Positions 42,347-57,731 of a DNA stretch of 64,000 nt are shown piece after piece. Numbering within the stretch: the stretch's first letter is position 1; every line of letters starts with the position of its first letter. Both the position numbers and the translations under genes were made by a program. Source of the DNA: Fervidobacterium changbaicum (GTDB taxonomy: Bacteria > Thermotogota > Thermotogae > Thermotogales > Fervidobacteriaceae); assembly GCF_004117075.1 (NCBI RefSeq), contig NZ_CP026721.1, forward strand, positions 310,001 to 374,000, written 5' to 3'. Below the pieces are notes generated by a model. The model made no database searches and was not told the DNA's origin. It saw nothing but the letters and a program-made list of their open reading frames with translations.

Positions 42347-45002
<2,656 letters not shown>

Positions 45003-45033: not shown

Positions 45034-47444
<2,411 letters not shown>

Positions 47445-47718: not shown

Positions 47719-48441
47719 TCACTCTTTAAATCCTATACGGCGAAAGAATTCTGGTTTGTAGTTCCTTGAAAGATTAACTTCATCGCCGTTGTCAAGCACG
47801 ATTATATAAGAGCCTTGGAACCATTTTTTGATTTTCGATATGTGTTTTATGGAAATAACATAACTTTTGTGGACTTGTATGAAATCAGTGGCTGGTAACT
47901 TATTCATTAGCGTATGTAGTGGAGTTGAACATTCAAATCTGCCATCTTTGGTTATAATACGGACAGTCCTGTTTTCGGCTTCAAGATAGATTATTTCTTT
48001 TATCTCTATCAAGAGTATTTCATCACCGTGTTTAACAGGCAGTTTGGAAAGTTGTTGTATGTAGTACTGAAGACTATATTTTTTTACACCAATCTTAGAA
48101 ATTCTTTCGATAGTTTTGCTTAACCTTTCTTTTGAAACGGGTTTGAGTACGTAGTCGATAGCGCCTTCCTCAAATGCCTTTATCGTGTATTCATCGTACG
48201 CTGTTACAAATACTACATGTGGGGAGTACACCAATTTTCCAAGGACTTCAAATATTAGTTTATCACCAACGTTTATATCTAAGAAGAGTACTTCAGGCTG
48301 AATACTATTTGCTTTCTCGATAAAGTCTTCGCAGTTGTATGATTCAAAGAGTATGTCAATACTGCTGTCTATTTCTTTTAAAATCCTTTTCATTCGTTCC
48401 ATAGCATTTGGCTCATCTTCAACAATACCACAGCTAAACAT
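47719..48441 (-). CDS. LytTR-family response regulator
   Basis: A 240-residue protein. The receiver has CGIVEDEPNAMERMKRIL, the phosphoacceptor in EVLFLDINVGDKL, FVTAYDEYTIKAFEEGAIDYVLKPV. The C-terminal LytTR DNA-binding domain is IIYLEAENRTVRIITKDGRF, FIQVHKSYVISIKHISKIKKWFQGSYIIVLDNG and LSRNYKPEFF. It is encoded with the LytS-like kinase by 8-base overlap. Targets are not evident; LytTR sites are direct repeats and none was clear nearby. Confidence 0.92.
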   Translation of the reverse strand: MFSCGIVEDEPNAMERMKRILKEIDSSIDILFESYNCEDFIEKANSIQPEVLFLDINVGDKLIFEVLGKLVYSPHVVFVTAYDEYTIKAFEEGAIDYVLKPVSKERLSKTIERISKIGVKKYSLQYYIQQLSKLPVKHGDEILLIEIKEIIYLEAENRTVRIITKDGRFECSTPLHTLMNKLPATDFIQVHKSYVISIKHISKIKKWFQGSYIIVLDNGDEVNLSRNYKPEFFRRIGFKE

Positions 48442-49462
48442 TCAGCTCACTACCCTTCGATAATGGAATAAGAAGAGAAACGCATGTACTGTTACCATCA
48501 GTTTTTGCAAAAATCTTGCCACCTATGAGTTCGAGTTGTTTCAAAACTATTGACAACCCAGTTCCGAAATTCTCAGGTATGATTTCTCTCTTTGGAGTTC
48601 CAGTGTTCTTAATGATTATTTCTAAAGTATCCTCTTGTTCGCACACATTGATTTCAAGCTTGCCGCCAGAATTTCCCTTGATTCCGTACTTTATCGCGTT
48701 TTCCACTACAGGTTGAGTTATTCCTGACGGAACGATTCTCTTTTTGGCTGAGTCTTCGATATTTATCGCATAATCAAAAGTCAAGGAGCTCATCATTTCT
48801 TTTTGTATAAGTACATATTGCTCTATGAAAGCCAGTTCTTCATCTATGCTCCACTGTCTTTTGAATTTTAACACAGAGCGGTAATAATCAGAGACCATAA
48901 TGGTGAACTCTTCAGCTCTGTCCGGATTTTTTCTTACAGCCTCGGCTAAGAAGTTGAATGTGTTAAATACAAAGTGTGGATTTAATTTTGTTCTGAGCAG
49001 ATCCATGTTAAGATTCTGAAGTTCCTTCTCCAGCGAAAGTCTTCTCAATTTTTCTTTTAACGCGGATAGATAACTCGCTATCGATATTGATAGAAAAACA
49101 GTGAGTAACCAAAATGCGTCGTTAACATCTAACCTTCTGCTGTGAAAATACGTTATTCTCAGAATTACTTCTGATAAAGAAAAGCTTAAAGTAAAAGAGT
49201 ACGATAGATTTATGAGGTCATAAAGAAGCTTTTTTAACGCGCTCTGTTCTGATCTATAAAGCTTCCGAAACACTAAAAAGAGCAACATTATAGAATTCAT
49301 TAGTACAAAAGATAATACAAAGGGAGTGTAGTAATTCTTGAATTCTACCGCTCTTAGCAGCGTTAAGAACCATATTAATATTGAAATCTCGACAACCGCA
49401 ACCTTCCATAAAAGGTTTAATTTCATATACGCTGATCTACCTGCGCTTAGCACTCTTTTCAA
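48434..49462 (-). CDS. LytS-like sensor histidine kinase (His_kinase family)
   Basis: A 342-residue kinase with about five hydrophobic segments in residues 15-130, then the His_kinase domain LNPHFVFNTFNFLAEAVRKNP (phosphoacceptor H about residue 159) and the ATP-binding VPSGITQPVVENAIKYGIKG and NFGTGLSIVLKQLELIGG. The start is TTG 49462, with AAGGGGAG at 8-base spacing. There is no recognisable extracytoplasmic sensor domain, so the membrane helices may be the sensor. It is 21 bases downstream of the gene ending at 49484. Confidence 0.9.
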   Translation of the reverse strand: MKRVLSAGRSAYMKLNLLWKVAVVEISILIWFLTLLRAVEFKNYYTPFVLSFVLMNSIMLLFLVFRKLYRSEQSALKKLLYDLINLSYSFTLSFSLSEVILRITYFHSRRLDVNDAFWLLTVFLSISIASYLSALKEKLRRLSLEKELQNLNMDLLRTKLNPHFVFNTFNFLAEAVRKNPDRAEEFTIMVSDYYRSVLKFKRQWSIDEELAFIEQYVLIQKEMMSSLTFDYAINIEDSAKKRIVPSGITQPVVENAIKYGIKGNSGGKLEINVCEQEDTLEIIIKNTGTPKREIIPENFGTGLSIVLKQLELIGGKIFAKTDGNSTCVSLLIPLSKGSELNV

Positions 49463-50696: not shown

Positions 50697-51755
50697 GATA
50701 CTGTTAACTAAAAGTATTGAAACTTTCCAAAAACCGCATTATCCTTATAAAGAGGGGACACCCCCCAACCAACTCTCGACAAAGGAGGTATCCCGATATG
50801 AACAACTCAACGCTCTCTTGTCCAAAATGCGGTTCCACCAGCTTATACAAAAACGGTCATGACAAATACGGTAACCAACAATTCCTTTGCAAACTCTGCC
50901 ATCATTCTTTCAAACTCTCCCATTCTCACAAACGCAAAAACTTCTCTTTCCCTTATCCCAAATGCACTTCTTGTGGTAAATCTATGCAAATTTACAAAGT
51001 CCGTCGCTCTTTCGTTGTCTTCCGTTGTAGAGCTTGTCGTACCAAAGATAGAGTACCTTTTAACCTCCCCGAACCAGTCACCCTTATTCCTGAGAAATTT
51101 AAATATTTCCGCTTCCCTATCTTTTTCGTCTTAAAGGCTTTCGTTTTGTATATGAAACACAATATGTCTTATCGCTCTCTTGCTCATTCTCTTAATATCA
51201 AAGTATCTCATGTCACCATATACAAATGGGTTATTAAATTGTGTACTTTATTCTCTGTACTTTTTCCAACATTTACCATCGAAAATGTTTTCTCAGTTCA
51301 TGCTGATGAAACTGTTCTTGTTTTCAAAGAACAAAAGTACTATGTTTGGCTATTAGTTGATCACGAAACTAACTTAATTCTTTGTTGGCATGTCTCAAAG
51401 TATCGTGATATGGGACAAGTCAAAGTATTGCTCGAGAAGTTCTTTGGTAATTCAAAACCTAGAAACATTGAACTTATTACTGATGGACTTGGTGCATATG
51501 AAAGTGCAGTAAAGCTGTTGTTCAGAAATATCAATCACGTAGTGGTACCGCTCGGTAAAAACAATCAATGTGAATCCAAGTTTTCATTGTTGAAAGACTT
51601 TTTCCGACTCAAGCGAGGGCTGAAGAATACGAAGAATTTAGCGAAATATATTCAAGGATTTTGTGTAGTGAAGAATCTTTGGAAAACGCACAATGGTAAT
51701 ATCAATCTCATTCTTTCACACTTACACTCTTTCATCACTACAAGTTAACACTATC
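50697..51755 (+). mobile_element. IS6-like insertion sequence, copy 2, with 8-bp target duplication
   Basis: The ends are GATACTGTTAACT (50697-50709) and AGTTAACACTATC (51743-51755), 12 of 13 positions complementary. It is flanked by direct repeats GTGTTTTT at 50689-50696 and 51756-51763. At 1059 bp it is a relative of the element at 10987, in the opposite orientation, with a clearly diverged transposase. So this is a second, distinct sub-lineage and not a recent duplicate of copy 1. It separates the gene at 51782 from the gene at 50010. Confidence 0.9.
50798..51748 (+). CDS. DDE transposase of the IS6-like element (copy 2)
   Basis: The start is ATG 50798, with AAAGGAGGTA 8 bases upstream. 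The 316-residue product has the same layout as copy 1: zinc ribbons CPKCGST/FLCKLCHHSF and CTSCGKSM/FRCRACRTKD, a helix-turn-helix region (SLAHSLNIKVSHVTIYKWV), and DDE residues in VHADETVL, LITDGLGAY and KNNQCESKF. It is open and apparently functional. An in-frame TTG 27 codons upstream at the element end gives an extension also seen in copy 1. Confidence 0.88.
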   Translation: MNNSTLSCPKCGSTSLYKNGHDKYGNQQFLCKLCHHSFKLSHSHKRKNFSFPYPKCTSCGKSMQIYKVRRSFVVFRCRACRTKDRVPFNLPEPVTLIPEKFKYFRFPIFFVLKAFVLYMKHNMSYRSLAHSLNIKVSHVTIYKWVIKLCTLFSVLFPTFTIENVFSVHADETVLVFKEQKYYVWLLVDHETNLILCWHVSKYRDMGQVKVLLEKFFGNSKPRNIELITDGLGAYESAVKLLFRNINHVVVPLGKNNQCESKFSLLKDFFRLKRGLKNTKNLAKYIQGFCVVKNLWKTHNGNINLILSHLHSFITTS

Positions 51756-52689: not shown

Positions 52690-53829
52690 TCAGAAATATT
52701 CTATTTTGACCACTTTTCCGCGTTGCTGCAGTATTGCGGCTATGTCGTGAATAATTCTAAACTTAAGCGATATGTCGTGGGAGAATAAAGGATTTTGATG
52801 CGCAGGATTTATCGCCCTTCCAACGAGAAAAGTGATAATGTCTGATTCCTCAAGCAAATCGATAAGCTTTTGAGCTCCCACACCTAATGTTGTGTCCTGA
52901 TTTTCGTAGTACCTAAATACTTGCGAAAGGGTAATTATACCTTCAGTGACCAAATCAACACCTTCCATATGTCCAATAGGCGGTGAGTACTCCGATATGC
53001 TTGAGAAATCTATTTCCACTTTCTTACCAAGTATTTTTTCAACTATCTGACTCGTGGTGCCACCGCAAATAACCTTTTTTCCCTCTGAATTCATCAACTT
53101 TTCGACAACAATTTTGTCGTGTTCCTTCTTTTCCGGAGGTCCGACCATTATCGTCAGATTTCTTCTTTCTCGAATCTTGATTGCGCATACCGTTGCATCG
53201 TCACCTTTCGAGCCTCTATCGAGTGCTTCAGCTAGTCTAACAAGATGGTTTGTGATACTCTCCAAATCGACTTTGTTATCCATCAGGTTCTTTAGTTCGT
53301 ATTTAATATTTTCTATTCCAAAACCGAATGGATACTTTGCGGTTCCCATCCCCGCCTGAGAAATACCATCGGTCATTAGAAAGACAACATCATCAGGTTT
53401 GATTTGGATACTGCTTTCAAGAACAGTTCTCCCTTGTATCTTATGTTCCTTTTTCTCTAACTCGACGAACTGACCATCCCTGTAGAAAAGGACTATAGGG
53501 AAATCGTACTCAAAGATATGGCAATCACCGGTAACATGGTTAACGTAGCAGGTAGCCAGCGTAGCATAGCTTATTCCCCGAACCTTACACGTCGGGAGTG
53601 TTGAAATGATGGAAGAAAAGACTTCAGAAATGGGAACATCGTTGAGAACCATCGTAGTGGACATTGAAGCGGTCAAAGTGGAAAGTATACTTGCTTTTAT
53701 GCCACTGCCAAGGCCGTCCGAAACACTAACAACCGTTTTTTCTTCAGTTTTTTTGACTTTCACCGTATCTCCGCAGACTTCTTCTCCGGCTTTATTCTTT
53801 TGTGCGTAGTAAATTTCACTTGTCAGCAT
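52690..53829 (-). CDS. SpoIIE-type PP2C phosphatase with C-terminal extension, HydS operon
   Basis: The start is ATG 53829, with TTGGGGG 7-8 bases upstream, overlapping the HydS-type gene by 14 bases. The 379-residue product has a PP2C/SpoIIE domain: VVSVSDGLGSGIKASILS, then FLMTDGISQAG and GSKGDDATVCAI, giving the metal-binding aspartates. The C-terminal 150 residues (TIMVGPPEKKEHDKIVVEKL, KKVICGGTTSQIVEKILG) are not a motif I recognise, though similar proteins occur beside HydS-type genes in other anaerobes. It probably dephosphorylates a protein serine in response to the HydS sensor (inference). Confidence 0.8.
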   Translation of the reverse strand: MLTSEIYYAQKNKAGEEVCGDTVKVKKTEEKTVVSVSDGLGSGIKASILSTLTASMSTTMVLNDVPISEVFSSIISTLPTCKVRGISYATLATCYVNHVTGDCHIFEYDFPIVLFYRDGQFVELEKKEHKIQGRTVLESSIQIKPDDVVFLMTDGISQAGMGTAKYPFGFGIENIKYELKNLMDNKVDLESITNHLVRLAEALDRGSKGDDATVCAIKIRERRNLTIMVGPPEKKEHDKIVVEKLMNSEGKKVICGGTTSQIVEKILGKKVEIDFSSISEYSPPIGHMEGVDLVTEGIITLSQVFRYYENQDTTLGVGAQKLIDLLEESDIITFLVGRAINPAHQNPLFSHDISLKFRIIHDIAAILQQRGKVVKIEYF

Positions 53830-55519
53830 TTTCTTCCCCCAAGAACTTTTTGAATTCAGCAAAGCGGGATTTTGTTTCAGCTATTGACTCTCCAAGCAAG
53901 CTTGCAATATCCTGGGCTAGTTTCATCTGTTCGTTCAAGACTTCGTCTATTTTCTCTATCGTCCGCCTTCTCAGCTCATTCATATGTTCCCTTTGGTGAA
54001 CCATTTCGGTCAGGTCAACAAAAAGGACCACCGTTCCTCCGTTGTCTGGTAGGTCAAAGACTTTTGGATAAAGGTAAACCTTTCTCGAGTTGATGTAAAG
54101 CTCGTGTATCCTATTCGGACTCTCTTTTGCTCTCAGACAAATACTGATTATCATATCATCTGAATAGCTTGAGAACAGCTCTTTTGCAGAGTTGTTTATG
54201 TAAAGTATATTAGATTCCTTGAATATAACGATCGCGTTGGGTGTTTCTTCCACAACAAGGTTACTCACAGACGAAACCTTTTCAACCAAATACGCGAAAC
54301 ACATTTCCTTTTCTGCTTTTCCAACAGCGACGGCAACAGCTTTTTCCCGACAGGTTTCATAACCACAGCCAGTACAATTCAAAATCTTCGATGGCTCTGT
54401 CTTTCCCATCTCCGAAAGAATACGCTCAATTTCTGATTCAGGCACATTGTATTCCACTTTCTTTACCTTCAATGAACGTTTCAAATCCACAGGAACAGAA
54501 AACATATCTAATTTCTTTACACTTAATTCTTCCAGACGTTTCACAGCATTTTGTAACCGCACACGGCGGAATAATATATTGTCCTGCTTTTTCATAGTAG
54601 GTCCGTTGATACATCCACCAACGCAAGCCGATGCCTCTATAAACACCTTTTCATTAAAGTCGGAAAAAGTCTTAAAGAAGCTGATGATGTTTTCCACGCC
54701 TTCTAAAACATAGTGAGGGAAGGTCTCGTTGAAATAAGACGTTGCGGAGTATACGATACCACCAGAAGATGGATAGAACCTTGCTCGGTTAGGGTATGGA
54801 GCGTCAGGATAGCTTTCCGAAAGCTTTTCTATTAAGTCATCTAAACTAACGCTATCTTCTTCATTCTTCTCTTCTTGCAGAATTACCGACTTCAGTGCGT
54901 TTTCCAATTCTTCGTATGTTAGAACGACATCGTAAACACCTTCTAATTCTTTCTTTTTCGCTATACAAGGACTCACGAACACTTTCGGAAGATTTCCAAA
55001 CAGATGACTTAAGAACTGTGCATGAGCACCTGCGGGAGATTTTACCTTTATCAGATAATCCACGTATTCTGAAAAGTATTTTTCGACGAGCTCCACTACA
55101 ACAGGACATGCTGTGGTAATTTGCGGTCTGTCACTCTGCGCAAAGACCTTCATGTATTCCTTTGTAACATATTCCGCCCCAATTGAAGTTTCGGAGATGT
55201 ATACGCAACCTATCTGCTTTAGTAATGTCAATACTTTGAACGGTTCTGTGAAATAGGCATAGAAAGATGGAGCGAGTGAGAGCACGAAAGGTTTTCTCAC
55301 TAAGGATAAAAACTCGTTGATATCGCGTCTGTATTGTTTTGCGTTTTGCGGGCATACGTTGACACAAGTTCCACACAAAATACATTCCTCTTCTATTACA
55401 AAGGATTCTTCGTTCTTGAAGCTTATAGCTTTAACAGGGCAATTTCTAAGACACTTGTAACAGTACGTGCAATTTGCCTTGTCTGACAAAATATACCTAC
55501 TTTTTGTAATTGGTATCAT
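53816..55519 (-). CDS. HydS-type putative sensory [FeFe]-hydrogenase with PAS domain
   Basis: A 567-residue protein. It has two N-terminal 4Fe-4S clusters (C17-C27 and C46-C56), a hydrogenase large-subunit-like domain and a second 4Fe-4S motif (CTGCGYETC with C407). A PAS-like region (about 420-520) follows, then a C-terminal helix. The four H-cluster cysteines are kept: L1 TTACPV (C138), L2 SPCIAKKKE (C185), L3 SACVGGCINGP (C299, C303). The proton-transfer cysteine of TSCCP is alanine, so catalysis should be poor, as in the T. maritima HydS protein. It is coupled by ATGA to the gene upstream and overlaps the phosphatase gene. A role as H2 or redox sensor is the likely reading. Confidence 0.88.
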   Translation of the reverse strand: MIPITKSRYILSDKANCTYCYKCLRNCPVKAISFKNEESFVIEEECILCGTCVNVCPQNAKQYRRDINEFLSLVRKPFVLSLAPSFYAYFTEPFKVLTLLKQIGCVYISETSIGAEYVTKEYMKVFAQSDRPQITTACPVVVELVEKYFSEYVDYLIKVKSPAGAHAQFLSHLFGNLPKVFVSPCIAKKKELEGVYDVVLTYEELENALKSVILQEEKNEEDSVSLDDLIEKLSESYPDAPYPNRARFYPSSGGIVYSATSYFNETFPHYVLEGVENIISFFKTFSDFNEKVFIEASACVGGCINGPTMKKQDNILFRRVRLQNAVKRLEELSVKKLDMFSVPVDLKRSLKVKKVEYNVPESEIERILSEMGKTEPSKILNCTGCGYETCREKAVAVAVGKAEKEMCFAYLVEKVSSVSNLVVEETPNAIVIFKESNILYINNSAKELFSSYSDDMIISICLRAKESPNRIHELYINSRKVYLYPKVFDLPDNGGTVVLFVDLTEMVHQREHMNELRRRTIEKIDEVLNEQMKLAQDIASLLGESIAETKSRFAEFKKFLGEENADK

Positions 55520-55812
55520 CTACCTTCACCTACTTTTTTACTACCACTTAAGCTAACAAGCGATTCCTTTATCTTCCCTACCAATTCTTCCACGTTAGAT
55601 TCGCTAATGTTTTCAAAAATCTCATCGCCAACTTTAACGTTGACTCCTTTTGAGCAATTTCCCATACACAGACTTCCTCGCATTTCGATATTCTCGTCAG
55701 CAAATAGGTCTCTCAGTTTTTCAACTACCTTGTATGCCCCTTTCAGATGGCAGGAACTTCCTAGACATACGTAAACTATTGCTTCTTTCTCCGAACTTTT
55801 AGAATCATTCAT
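55516..55812 (-). CDS. Thioredoxin-like [2Fe-2S] ferredoxin, HydS operon
   Basis: The start is ATG 55812, with AGTGAGGGG upstream; the frame continues to 55884 but without similarity. The 98-residue protein has CLGSSCHLKGAYKVVEKLR and GSLCMGNCSKGVNVKV, which supply the four cysteines of the thioredoxin-like [2Fe-2S] fold. It matches the C-terminal domain of HydA and the N-terminal domain of HydB. It is the first gene of the three-gene HydS operon and likely passes electrons to or from HydS. Confidence 0.88.
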   Translation of the reverse strand: MNDSKSSEKEAIVYVCLGSSCHLKGAYKVVEKLRDLFADENIEMRGSLCMGNCSKGVNVKVGDEIFENISESNVEELVGKIKESLVSLSGSKKVGEGR

Positions 55813-55867: not shown

Positions 55868-55918
55868 TTCGTTATTACTTTCACGATATATTGTACGATA
55901 TTTTCCAGACTCAGTCAA
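55868..55918 (-). promoter_or_regulatory. Promoter and Rex-like operator of the HydS operon
   Basis: On the minus strand TTGACT (55913-55918), 17-base spacer, TACAAT (55890-55895). Two bases later is ATCGTGA-N6-TAACGAA (55868-55887), which matches 12 of 14 arm positions of the hydCBA inverted repeat and has the same position relative to the -10. Confidence 0.7.
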
Positions 55919-56117: not shown

Positions 56118-56195
56118 GGGGACGTGGTGCAGCCTGGTTAGCACGCCGGTCTGTCACACCGGTGGCCGCGAGTTCAAATCTCGTCGTCCCCGCCA
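56118..56195 (+). tRNA. tRNA-Asp (GTC), CCA encoded
   Basis: The acceptor stem GGGGACG pairs with CGTCCCC, followed by the discriminator G and CCA. The D arm shows AGCCTGGTTAGC, the anticodon stem CCGGT/ACCGG encloses CTGTCAC with anticodon GTC, and the T arm is GCGAGTTCAAATCTCGT. All arms are complete. It stands alone between the HydS operon and the LUD gene, with its own promoter and terminator. Confidence 0.97.
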
Positions 56196-56202
56196 AGTAG
56201 AA

Positions 56203-56230
56203 ACGGGACCTTCAAAGGTCCCGTTTTTAT
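56203..56230 (+). terminator. Rho-independent terminator of tRNA-Asp
   Basis: ACGGGACCTT (56203-56212), CA loop, AAGGTCCCGT (56215-56224), then TTTTATT. Confidence 0.9.
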
Positions 56231-56291
56231 TCATTGTCTTAAAATTCTGTTCACAACTAAATGTAATTTACATGGGGGTGAGCAAACTTAT

Positions 56292-57092: not shown

Positions 57093-57731
57093 ATGAAGAT
57101 ACCAAAGCCGACAGTTAAAAGATTAGGACTTTACTATCGTTGTTTAGCAAGGTACAAGGAAGAAGGAGTTAATTTTGTGTCTTCACAGGACATAGCAGAG
57201 AGATTGAATATTAAACCAAGCCAAGTTAGAAAGGATTTGTCCTATTTTGGCGAATTCGGTAAACGAGGGCTTGGTTACAACGTGAGCAAATTGATTTCCG
57301 AGATAGCTCACATAATCGGTGTCAACAAAGAGTGGAATGTTGCTATAATTGGTGCGGGTAACTTGGGAAGTGCACTTGCAAATTATCCTGGGTTAATAAA
57401 GCACAAATTCCGTGTTGTTGCGATTTTTGATAACGACAGAGAAAAAGTTGGTAAAAAGATAGCCGGTATACAGGTATCTCATATCAGTGAATTGGAGCAA
57501 AAAGTTAAGGATATGGATATAGAAATCGCAGTTATTGCTGTTCCTGAGAGTGCAGCTCAGTACGTAGCTGAACAGGTTGAAGAGGCAGGAATCAAAGGCA
57601 TAGTAAATTTCTCCCCTATCAAGCTGAGAACGAAAATACCTGTGGAAGATGTTGATATAACTCTATCATTTGAAACGTTAGCTTACATGATTCTGAAAAA
57701 CTCTCCTGTAGAATCAGAAAAGGAAGAATAA
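57093..57731 (+). CDS. rex: Redox-sensing transcriptional repressor Rex (canonical)
   Basis: A 212-residue Rex of the standard kind. The winged helix has FVSSQDIAERLNIKPSQVRKDLSYFGEFGKRGLGYNV and the Rossmann domain has VAIIGAGNLGSALANYPG, VVAIFDNDREKVG and IAVIAVPESAAQYVAEQ. The GEFGKRGxGY wing is intact, unlike in the copy at 42347. GGGGGAGCG precedes the ATG. It is transcribed alone. Confidence 0.95.
   Translation: MKIPKPTVKRLGLYYRCLARYKEEGVNFVSSQDIAERLNIKPSQVRKDLSYFGEFGKRGLGYNVSKLISEIAHIIGVNKEWNVAIIGAGNLGSALANYPGLIKHKFRVVAIFDNDREKVGKKIAGIQVSHISELEQKVKDMDIEIAVIAVPESAAQYVAEQVEEAGIKGIVNFSPIKLRTKIPVEDVDITLSFETLAYMILKNSPVESEKEE

Follow-up and report, generated by a model that had tools for sequence, protein, structure and literature searches.

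We analyzed a 64,000-nucleotide stretch of the Fervidobacterium changbaicum genome (the window; contig NZ_CP026721.1, positions 310,001 to 374,000 of the forward strand) that contains a module of three genes centered on the hydrogenase HydS. The source genome is a single contig of 2,266,349 bases and belongs to the phylum Thermotogota. The three genes all lie on the minus strand. Module gene 1 encodes a thioredoxin-like, NuoE-like [2Fe-2S] protein (55516..55812; 98 amino acids from the ATG at 55812), the second encodes HydS, a group C (M2f) [FeFe] hydrogenase with a PAS domain (53816..55519; 567 amino acids) of the TM1420-1422 type (PMC3561251), and the third encodes a SpoIIE-type PP2C phosphatase with a C-terminal domain (52690..53829; 379 amino acids from the ATG at 53829). 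The stop codon of the [2Fe-2S] gene overlaps the start codon of hydS as ATGA, the phosphatase gene overlaps hydS by 14 bases, and a Shine-Dalgarno-like sequence, GGGGGAAG, is just 5' of the phosphatase ATG at 53829. An earlier note, made from the sequence alone, had described three overlapping genes, and this arrangement is as it said. An alternative phosphatase open reading frame (ORF) of 390 amino acids starts at an earlier TTG, and the Pfam coordinates for SpoIIE given below use that ORF. The operon-like overlap and its conservation across the phylum are far beyond chance, and the locus belongs to a known kind, represented by TM1420-1422 of Thermotoga maritima and the hfs operon.

The HydS in the window has the features of group C (M2f) enzymes: the H-cluster cysteines, a CX2CX4CX16C motif, a PAS domain, and replacement of the proton-transfer cysteine. 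It matches Pfam Fe_hyd_lg_C (2.7e-34), together with Fer4 domains and FeS. To assess residue conservation, we aligned 97 unique HydS proteins. The four H-cluster ligands (Cys138, Cys185, Cys299 and Cys303 in the window) were present in 97/97, as were all four cysteines of the C-terminal [4Fe-4S] motif (residues 382-407; 54299..54376, minus strand; motif as defined in PMC8163306). The proton-transfer position was more variable, with Ala in 49 proteins, Cys in 22, Ser in 21, and other residues in 5; the window has Ala137. The PAS domain matched weakly by Pfam (PAS_8, E 0.018) and strongly with a profile of related PAS partners (5.8e-23). The ligands, the alanine, and the PAS domain had all been noted earlier and hold up here. 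Because the H-cluster ligands are all kept, H2 chemistry is under selection wherever the H-domain is present. The [2Fe-2S] protein matches Pfam 2Fe-2S_thioredx (2.5e-8), and its four-Cys motif was kept in all 113 of the upstream counterparts found.

The catalytic half of the phosphatase is typical of its family. It matches Pfam SpoIIE (1.9e-18, residues 40-230), and structural searches with Foldseek returned PP2C phosphatases of the SpoIIE, RsbX, and stressosome types (3pu9, 1.8e-14; SpoIIE 5mqh, 7.5e-14). The five PP2C Asp positions that we checked were intact in 144/144 phosphatases.

The C-terminal 156 residues of the phosphatase (52693..53160, minus strand) form a conserved domain with no counterpart in Pfam. 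No credible Pfam match was found in 63 members scanned (best E 0.0015, to a family that 2 members matched), and a sequence profile search of the PDB gave no match (best E 2.1), in keeping with the description of this region as unfamiliar in the earlier note. Eight residues were conserved in 144/144 sequences: Gly230, Pro232, Gly256, Pro283, Glu296, Gly297, Gly337, and Asn341. The predicted structure of the phosphatase had a mean confidence (predicted local distance difference test, pLDDT) of 89.7, and the domain alone, a compact alpha/beta fold, reached 92.6. Foldseek found nothing at E<=0.001 for the domain. In structure comparison, the top 9 rows were all Rossmann domains of the molybdopterin-oxidoreductase type (NuoG/formylmethanofuran dehydrogenase, FwdB), with NuoG 7awt_G at Z 10.6 (root-mean-square deviation 2.6, 118 aligned residues); the next row after these nine had 6.7. 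Kinship with the molybdopterin domains was not confirmed by sequence profiles (hhalign probability of 4%, score 26.5, with 11 control families at <=22.9), and we treat the likeness as a resemblance of fold only. A hint of STAS-like identity (Pfam DUF4325, E 0.11) was likewise not supported.

The phosphatase is widespread in bacteria. In the Thermotogota there were 50 matches at E<=0.001, of which three (G005, G006, and G102) were weak PP2C matches only and were excluded, and the full phosphatase was present in 47 of 103 genomes. A scan of species genomes gave at least 587 relatives, and the best 80 of these, which we used, came from Bacillota, Atribacterota, Cyanobacteriota, Planctomycetota, Chloroflexota, Thermodesulfobacteriota, Cloacimonadota, Bacteroidota, Verrucomicrobiota, Spirochaetota, and Fusobacteriota. 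In even draws of genomes, the C-terminal domain was found in 115/291 Cyanobacteriota and 122/398 Bacillota (the phylum of Acetivibrio).

The phosphatase is preceded by one of two forms of PAS protein. Of 144 unique loci, 100 had hydS directly 5' of the phosphatase gene and 36 had a gene for a PAS-only protein there; no partner was found in 7 and one was unclear. The PAS-only partners are about 170 amino acids long (mostly 165-190) and have neither the H-domain nor the CX2CX4CX16C motif; three examples matched Pfam PAS_9 (3.5e-10 to 5.7e-7). Neighbor classes were assigned from single-query phmmer matches with score cut-offs, with L042, L063, and L065 (a PAS fragment with the 4-Cys motif, the gene split or cut by the contig end) labeled HydS by hand and the partner in L109 labeled unclear by hand. 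Locus L115 is cut at the contig start. In L059 and L098, from GC-rich contigs of metagenome-assembled genomes, the PAS partner was not found by ORF; apparent PAS-phosphatase fusions there (575 and 491 amino acids, respectively) were read as out-of-frame extensions and set aside. In a Thermotogota locus, L048 (7288-9035), the phosphatase gene is preceded by a PAS-only gene as well as a HydS-like gene, possibly an intermediate arrangement.

The two partner forms share a helix just after the PAS domain, with the pattern QM...Q.IA..LGET. In the window this output helix is at HydS residues 529-557 (53849..53935, minus strand) and contains NEQMKLAQDIASLLGE. The residues Q, M, Q, I, A, L, G, E, and T of the pattern were invariant in 21 PAS-only proteins. 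In HydS, the second Q (Q536), L542, and G543 were present in 97/97 and the E in 96/97. On the phosphatase tree there were only 4 changes of partner type over 136 labeled rows, compared with means above 30 for groups after shuffling; the tree was a quick, unrooted one with some long branches. Because there were so few changes, we conclude that the phosphatase and its partner have travelled together.

The phosphatase and the PAS partner are an obligate functional pair, because the two co-occur even when their genes are apart. In the Cyanobacteriota, they were found in the identical 115 of 291 genomes, adjacent in 110 and apart in 5 (on two contigs in G368). In a targeted test, all four cyanobacteria with an unlinked phosphatase carried the PAS partner elsewhere, all five linked positives had it, and none of 15 genomes without the phosphatase did. 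One of these four, G295, keeps its [2Fe-2S] and PAS genes beside hoxH, with the phosphatase gene 947 kb away; in L176 and L180, a lone phosphatase gene is followed by a gene resembling those for hydrogenase maturation proteases. In the Thermotogota, the partner was present in 47/47 genomes with the phosphatase and in 1 of the 56 without it (G056, 71% complete) at E<=2.2e-15. Weaker matches in other Thermotogota were PAS domains of longer proteins, in which the helix was absent. That the three genes make up one functional module, as proposed earlier, is supported by this essentially perfect co-occurrence.

The module is associated with hydrogen and ethanol metabolism. We examined gene context in the 108 loci whose flanks reach 3 kb or more upstream and 2 kb or more downstream; 74 are HydS loci, 30 are PAS-only, and in 4 no partner was found. 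Of the HydS loci, 61 had hydrogenase genes on the same strand, 65 the [2Fe-2S] gene, 28 rex, and 12 adhE, with neither hydrogenase genes nor adhE in 12. The PAS-only loci had the [2Fe-2S] gene in 29, and hydrogenase genes on the same strand in 24: hox [NiFe] genes in 13, a group A-type [FeFe] hydA in 8, and hydB-like genes without hox in 3. Four PAS-only loci had adhE, and four had neither. The C-terminal domain itself also occurs in hydrogenase gene runs. Standalone copies of about 153-159 amino acids are present in four Bacillota genomes (L249 8375-8833; L250 8623-9099; L251 8599-9072; L252 8445-8912). In all four, the copy has a HydA-like gene on one side and a hydC-hydB-hydA run of the bifurcating hydrogenase on the other, and HydS and the phosphatase are elsewhere in the genome. 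These copies keep several motifs of the domain, with NKSQRS in place of the NPAHQN of the phosphatase. Across the 291 Cyanobacteriota, the domain was found only on the phosphatase, save for one fragment.

The module in the window belongs to the bifurcating hydrogenase operon, which was split secondarily in this lineage. We draw this from the gene order of most Thermotogota, [2Fe-2S]-hydS-phosphatase-hydC-hydB-hydA-rex on one strand, in which hydC adjoins the 3' side of the phosphatase gene. All of these genes are in the window on the minus strand (hydC, 46935..47423; hydB, 45034..46938; hydA, 42990..44996; and, after hydA, a Rex-type redox repressor gene, 42347..43042), with a 5-kb insert between the phosphatase gene and hydC. 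The insert encodes an apparently exported protein, a transposase, a glycine-rich protein, a 180-amino-acid protein, and a histidine kinase with a LytTR response regulator. L195 and L196 carry relatives of the non-transposase genes, and L194 carries part of one.

We propose that the three genes form a switch from redox state to dephosphorylation, in which HydS gates the separately encoded PP2C phosphatase, and we put the probability of this at about two in three. The H-domain and iron-sulfur clusters of HydS, together with the [2Fe-2S] protein, would accept electrons or H2. This would set the state of the PAS domain, and the signal would pass through the terminal HydS helix, presumably by physical contact, to the phosphatase, which HydS would restrain at rest. 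When H2 or reduced carriers accumulate, the phosphatase would act on a Ser/Thr-phosphorylated substrate, probably a regulator of genes for reductant disposal such as those for hydrogenase and AdhE. The C-terminal Rossmann-like domain would probably bind a ligand or dock to the hydrogenase side of metabolism. HydS would be one version of a wider module, in which the sensor may be without an H-domain.

The direction of control is proposed from published deletions in Thermoanaerobacterium saccharolyticum. Strains lacking hfsA or hfsB made at least 3 mol of ethanol per mol of cellobiose, with NADH-linked alcohol dehydrogenase (NADH-ADH) activity up and adhE transcript up 2-3 fold, whereas deletion of hfsC, hfsD, both (CD), or all four (ABCD) left ethanol near wild type (PMC5707799). 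By analogy, this suggests that HydS restrains the phosphatase. In Ruminococcus albus, a cluster of HydS, hydrogenase, and adhE genes was 111-fold lower in co-culture, a change linked by the authors to the H2 level (PMC6776011). Both sets of data fit a model in which high H2 would free the phosphatase and ethanol would be favored.

Several points weigh against this proposal. The interaction, the response to H2, and the substrate are all inferred. The published epistasis (PMC5707799) is incomplete and the strain table has no clean ΔhfsBΔhfsC strain; hfsD is also required, and deletion of hfsA reduces downstream expression. HfsC is placed in this phosphatase family by gene order and published description. 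A 2026 paper attributes high-ethanol strains to disruption of 'hfsB/C' (PMC13277313), which fits badly with a need for HfsC. In Clostridium thermocellum, fermentation products are generally not regulated at the transcript level (PMC7063780). Group D HydS has no PAS domain, and its C-terminal cluster has little catalytic effect (PMC13104023). No STAS or serine-kinase gene adjoins the module in the window.

As to what the phosphatase acts on, one tentative possibility is a partner switch, in which the phosphatase would dephosphorylate a STAS anti-anti-sigma protein, the target of an RsbW-like kinase, and so free a sigma factor or a similar regulator. The catalytic domain is SpoIIE/RsbU/RsbX-like, and a search of the source genome for anti-sigma and kinase genes, as the earlier note had suggested, did turn up the parts: one standalone RsbW-like HATPase (153 amino acids; G000:C1:914703-915065) and five STAS-domain matches. 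None of these is at the module, however (the 144 loci not having been scanned for STAS), the RsbW-like gene has no STAS neighbor in the stretch read, and other SpoIIE-type phosphatases of the genome could serve the STAS proteins. We rejected the RsbW-like kinase as a discriminating test, as HATPase_c_2 was over the cut-off in 12/12 phosphatase-bearing genomes and also in 12/14 controls. It is unlikely, in our view, that the phosphatase instead targets a hydrogenase subunit or AdhE directly, opposed where present by a small kinase of the APH fold. In 10/144 loci, the gene run includes an APH/kinase-fold gene (Pfam APH 8.9e-14), so the earlier statement that the operon lacks a kinase is true of the window and fails for these relatives. 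The family is absent from the source genome (best E 0.43), however, and we rejected it as a universal antagonist; we also know of no phosphosite. The adhE genes on the same strand (12/74 HydS and 4/30 PAS-only loci) and the standalone C-terminal domains in hydrogenase operons (4/4 genomes) would suit direct control. Deletion of hfsA or hfsB raised NADH-ADH and not aldehyde dehydrogenase (ALDH) activity, but adhE transcripts rose as well, 2-3 fold (PMC5707799).

The input to the module is a separate question, and here the earlier note had named H2 or redox state. H2 as the only input is doubtful, as 36 of the 144 loci have PAS partners that lack the H-domain and the [4Fe-4S] motif. It is conceivable, if somewhat doubtful, that the module reads the redox state of carriers and not H2, the [2Fe-2S] protein being the true input and the H-domain of HydS a refinement or relic. 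The [2Fe-2S] gene is kept in 29 of the 30 long-flank PAS-only loci, and in G295 it is with hoxH and the PAS gene, far from the phosphatase gene. Against this, the H-cluster ligands are fully conserved (97/97) where the H-domain exists.

Beyond the switch proposed for the window, we favor, with slightly less confidence, a broader reading: a previously unrecognized signaling module of [2Fe-2S] protein, PAS protein with its helix, and PP2C phosphatase with its Rossmann-like domain would cross phyla and tie protein dephosphorylation to redox state in the metabolism of hydrogen and ethanol. It would serve [FeFe] hydrogenases, the [NiFe] Hox enzymes of cyanobacteria, and AdhE, with HydS as the version whose PAS protein has gained, or kept, an H-cluster sensor.

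The module resembles several known systems. The PP2C fold is shared with the RsbP, RsbU, and SpoIIE phosphatases of Bacillus. RsbP has a PAS domain upstream of PP2C, the order seen in the window. The module differs from these phosphatases in having PAS and PP2C in separate genes, an FeS/H-domain input, and the additional C-terminal Rossmann-like domain; in the window, the PAS protein and the phosphatase are separate ORFs with no RsbP-type fusion. The source genome does encode a putative RsbP-like comparator, labeled by eye, in which a PAS-like domain is fused to PP2C (L002, G000:C1:2185545-2186072; 354-amino-acid ORF) beside an ArsR-like regulator. We found no difference in kind between the window and TM1420-TM1422 (TmHydS; group C, M2f) of T. 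maritima, another member of the Thermotogota with a HydS-type set near HydABC and Ala at the proton-transfer position (PMC3561251, PMC10055695); in the window, the 5-kb insert lies between the module and hydCBA. In the hfs operons of Thermoanaerobacterium (hfsABC(D)) and C. thermocellum, a PAS hydrogenase is followed by HfsC, described as a serine-phosphatase homologue (PMC11837493), and deletion data tie the hfs genes to adhE. In contrast to the window, the next gene in Thermoanaerobacterium encodes HfsD, a HydA2-like hydrogenase, in place of hydCBA, and HfsA is described as part-hydrogenase-like; this comparison is by description. The R. albus HydS cluster differs in being linked, as described, to a ferredoxin-only hydrogenase and adhE. 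The regulatory [NiFe] hydrogenase of Ralstonia is also an H2 sensor that signals to a phosphorylation system (PMC5707799), but the output of HoxJ/HoxA is a histidine kinase and not a PP2C phosphatase.

The idea of signaling through the phosphatase is not itself new. The earlier note had called the path undescribed, but the phosphatase subunit of group C hydrogenases is already in print as one that 'may modify downstream regulators' (PMC6776011), and hfsA, hfsB, hfsC, and hfsD have each been deleted singly (PMC5707799). New relative to the open-access literature searched are the H-domain-free module beside [NiFe] hox and adhE, the pairing in trans, the shared helix, and the standalone C-terminal domains. 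We found no paper in that literature on the PAS/phosphatase pair in cyanobacterial hox clusters, and the word 'phosphatase' occurs 0 times in the available text of the cyanobacterial hydrogenase papers checked. Together, the genome evidence makes the phosphatase an obligate partner and singles out a short helix as the probable site of contact. Because this output also operates beside [NiFe] hydrogenases in the absence of an H-cluster, the signaling path can be tested with the small PAS-only proteins, for which no H-cluster has to be matured. The pathway also bears on the engineering of ethanol and H2 yields, in which hfsB disruption is already in use without a known mechanism.

Other features of the window and the genome are minor. 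A promoter-like TTGACT-17-TACAAT is 5' of the module (55890..55918, minus strand), a consensus match only, with 14 such matches found versus 8.0 expected. Further upstream are tRNA-Asp(gtc) (56118-56195, plus strand) and then a strong terminator-like hairpin (56196-56231). Two Rex-type repressor genes, on opposite strands, are on either side of the hydrogenase region (42347-43042 and 57093-57731). In the insert, the genes for the histidine kinase and LytTR response regulator (47719-49462) are also in L195 and L196 and did not turn up in L194 or in any other relative tested. Copies of the transposase at 50717-51748 occur in L194 and L198, from the same genus, at 99.7% and 98.8% identity, and these near-identical copies suggest a recent spread of the insertion sequence. 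A second SpoIIE-type phosphatase gene (G000:C1:660720-662341; L004, L005) appears to be split by a transposase, whose sequence, as far as shown, is identical to the start of the one at 50717-51748.

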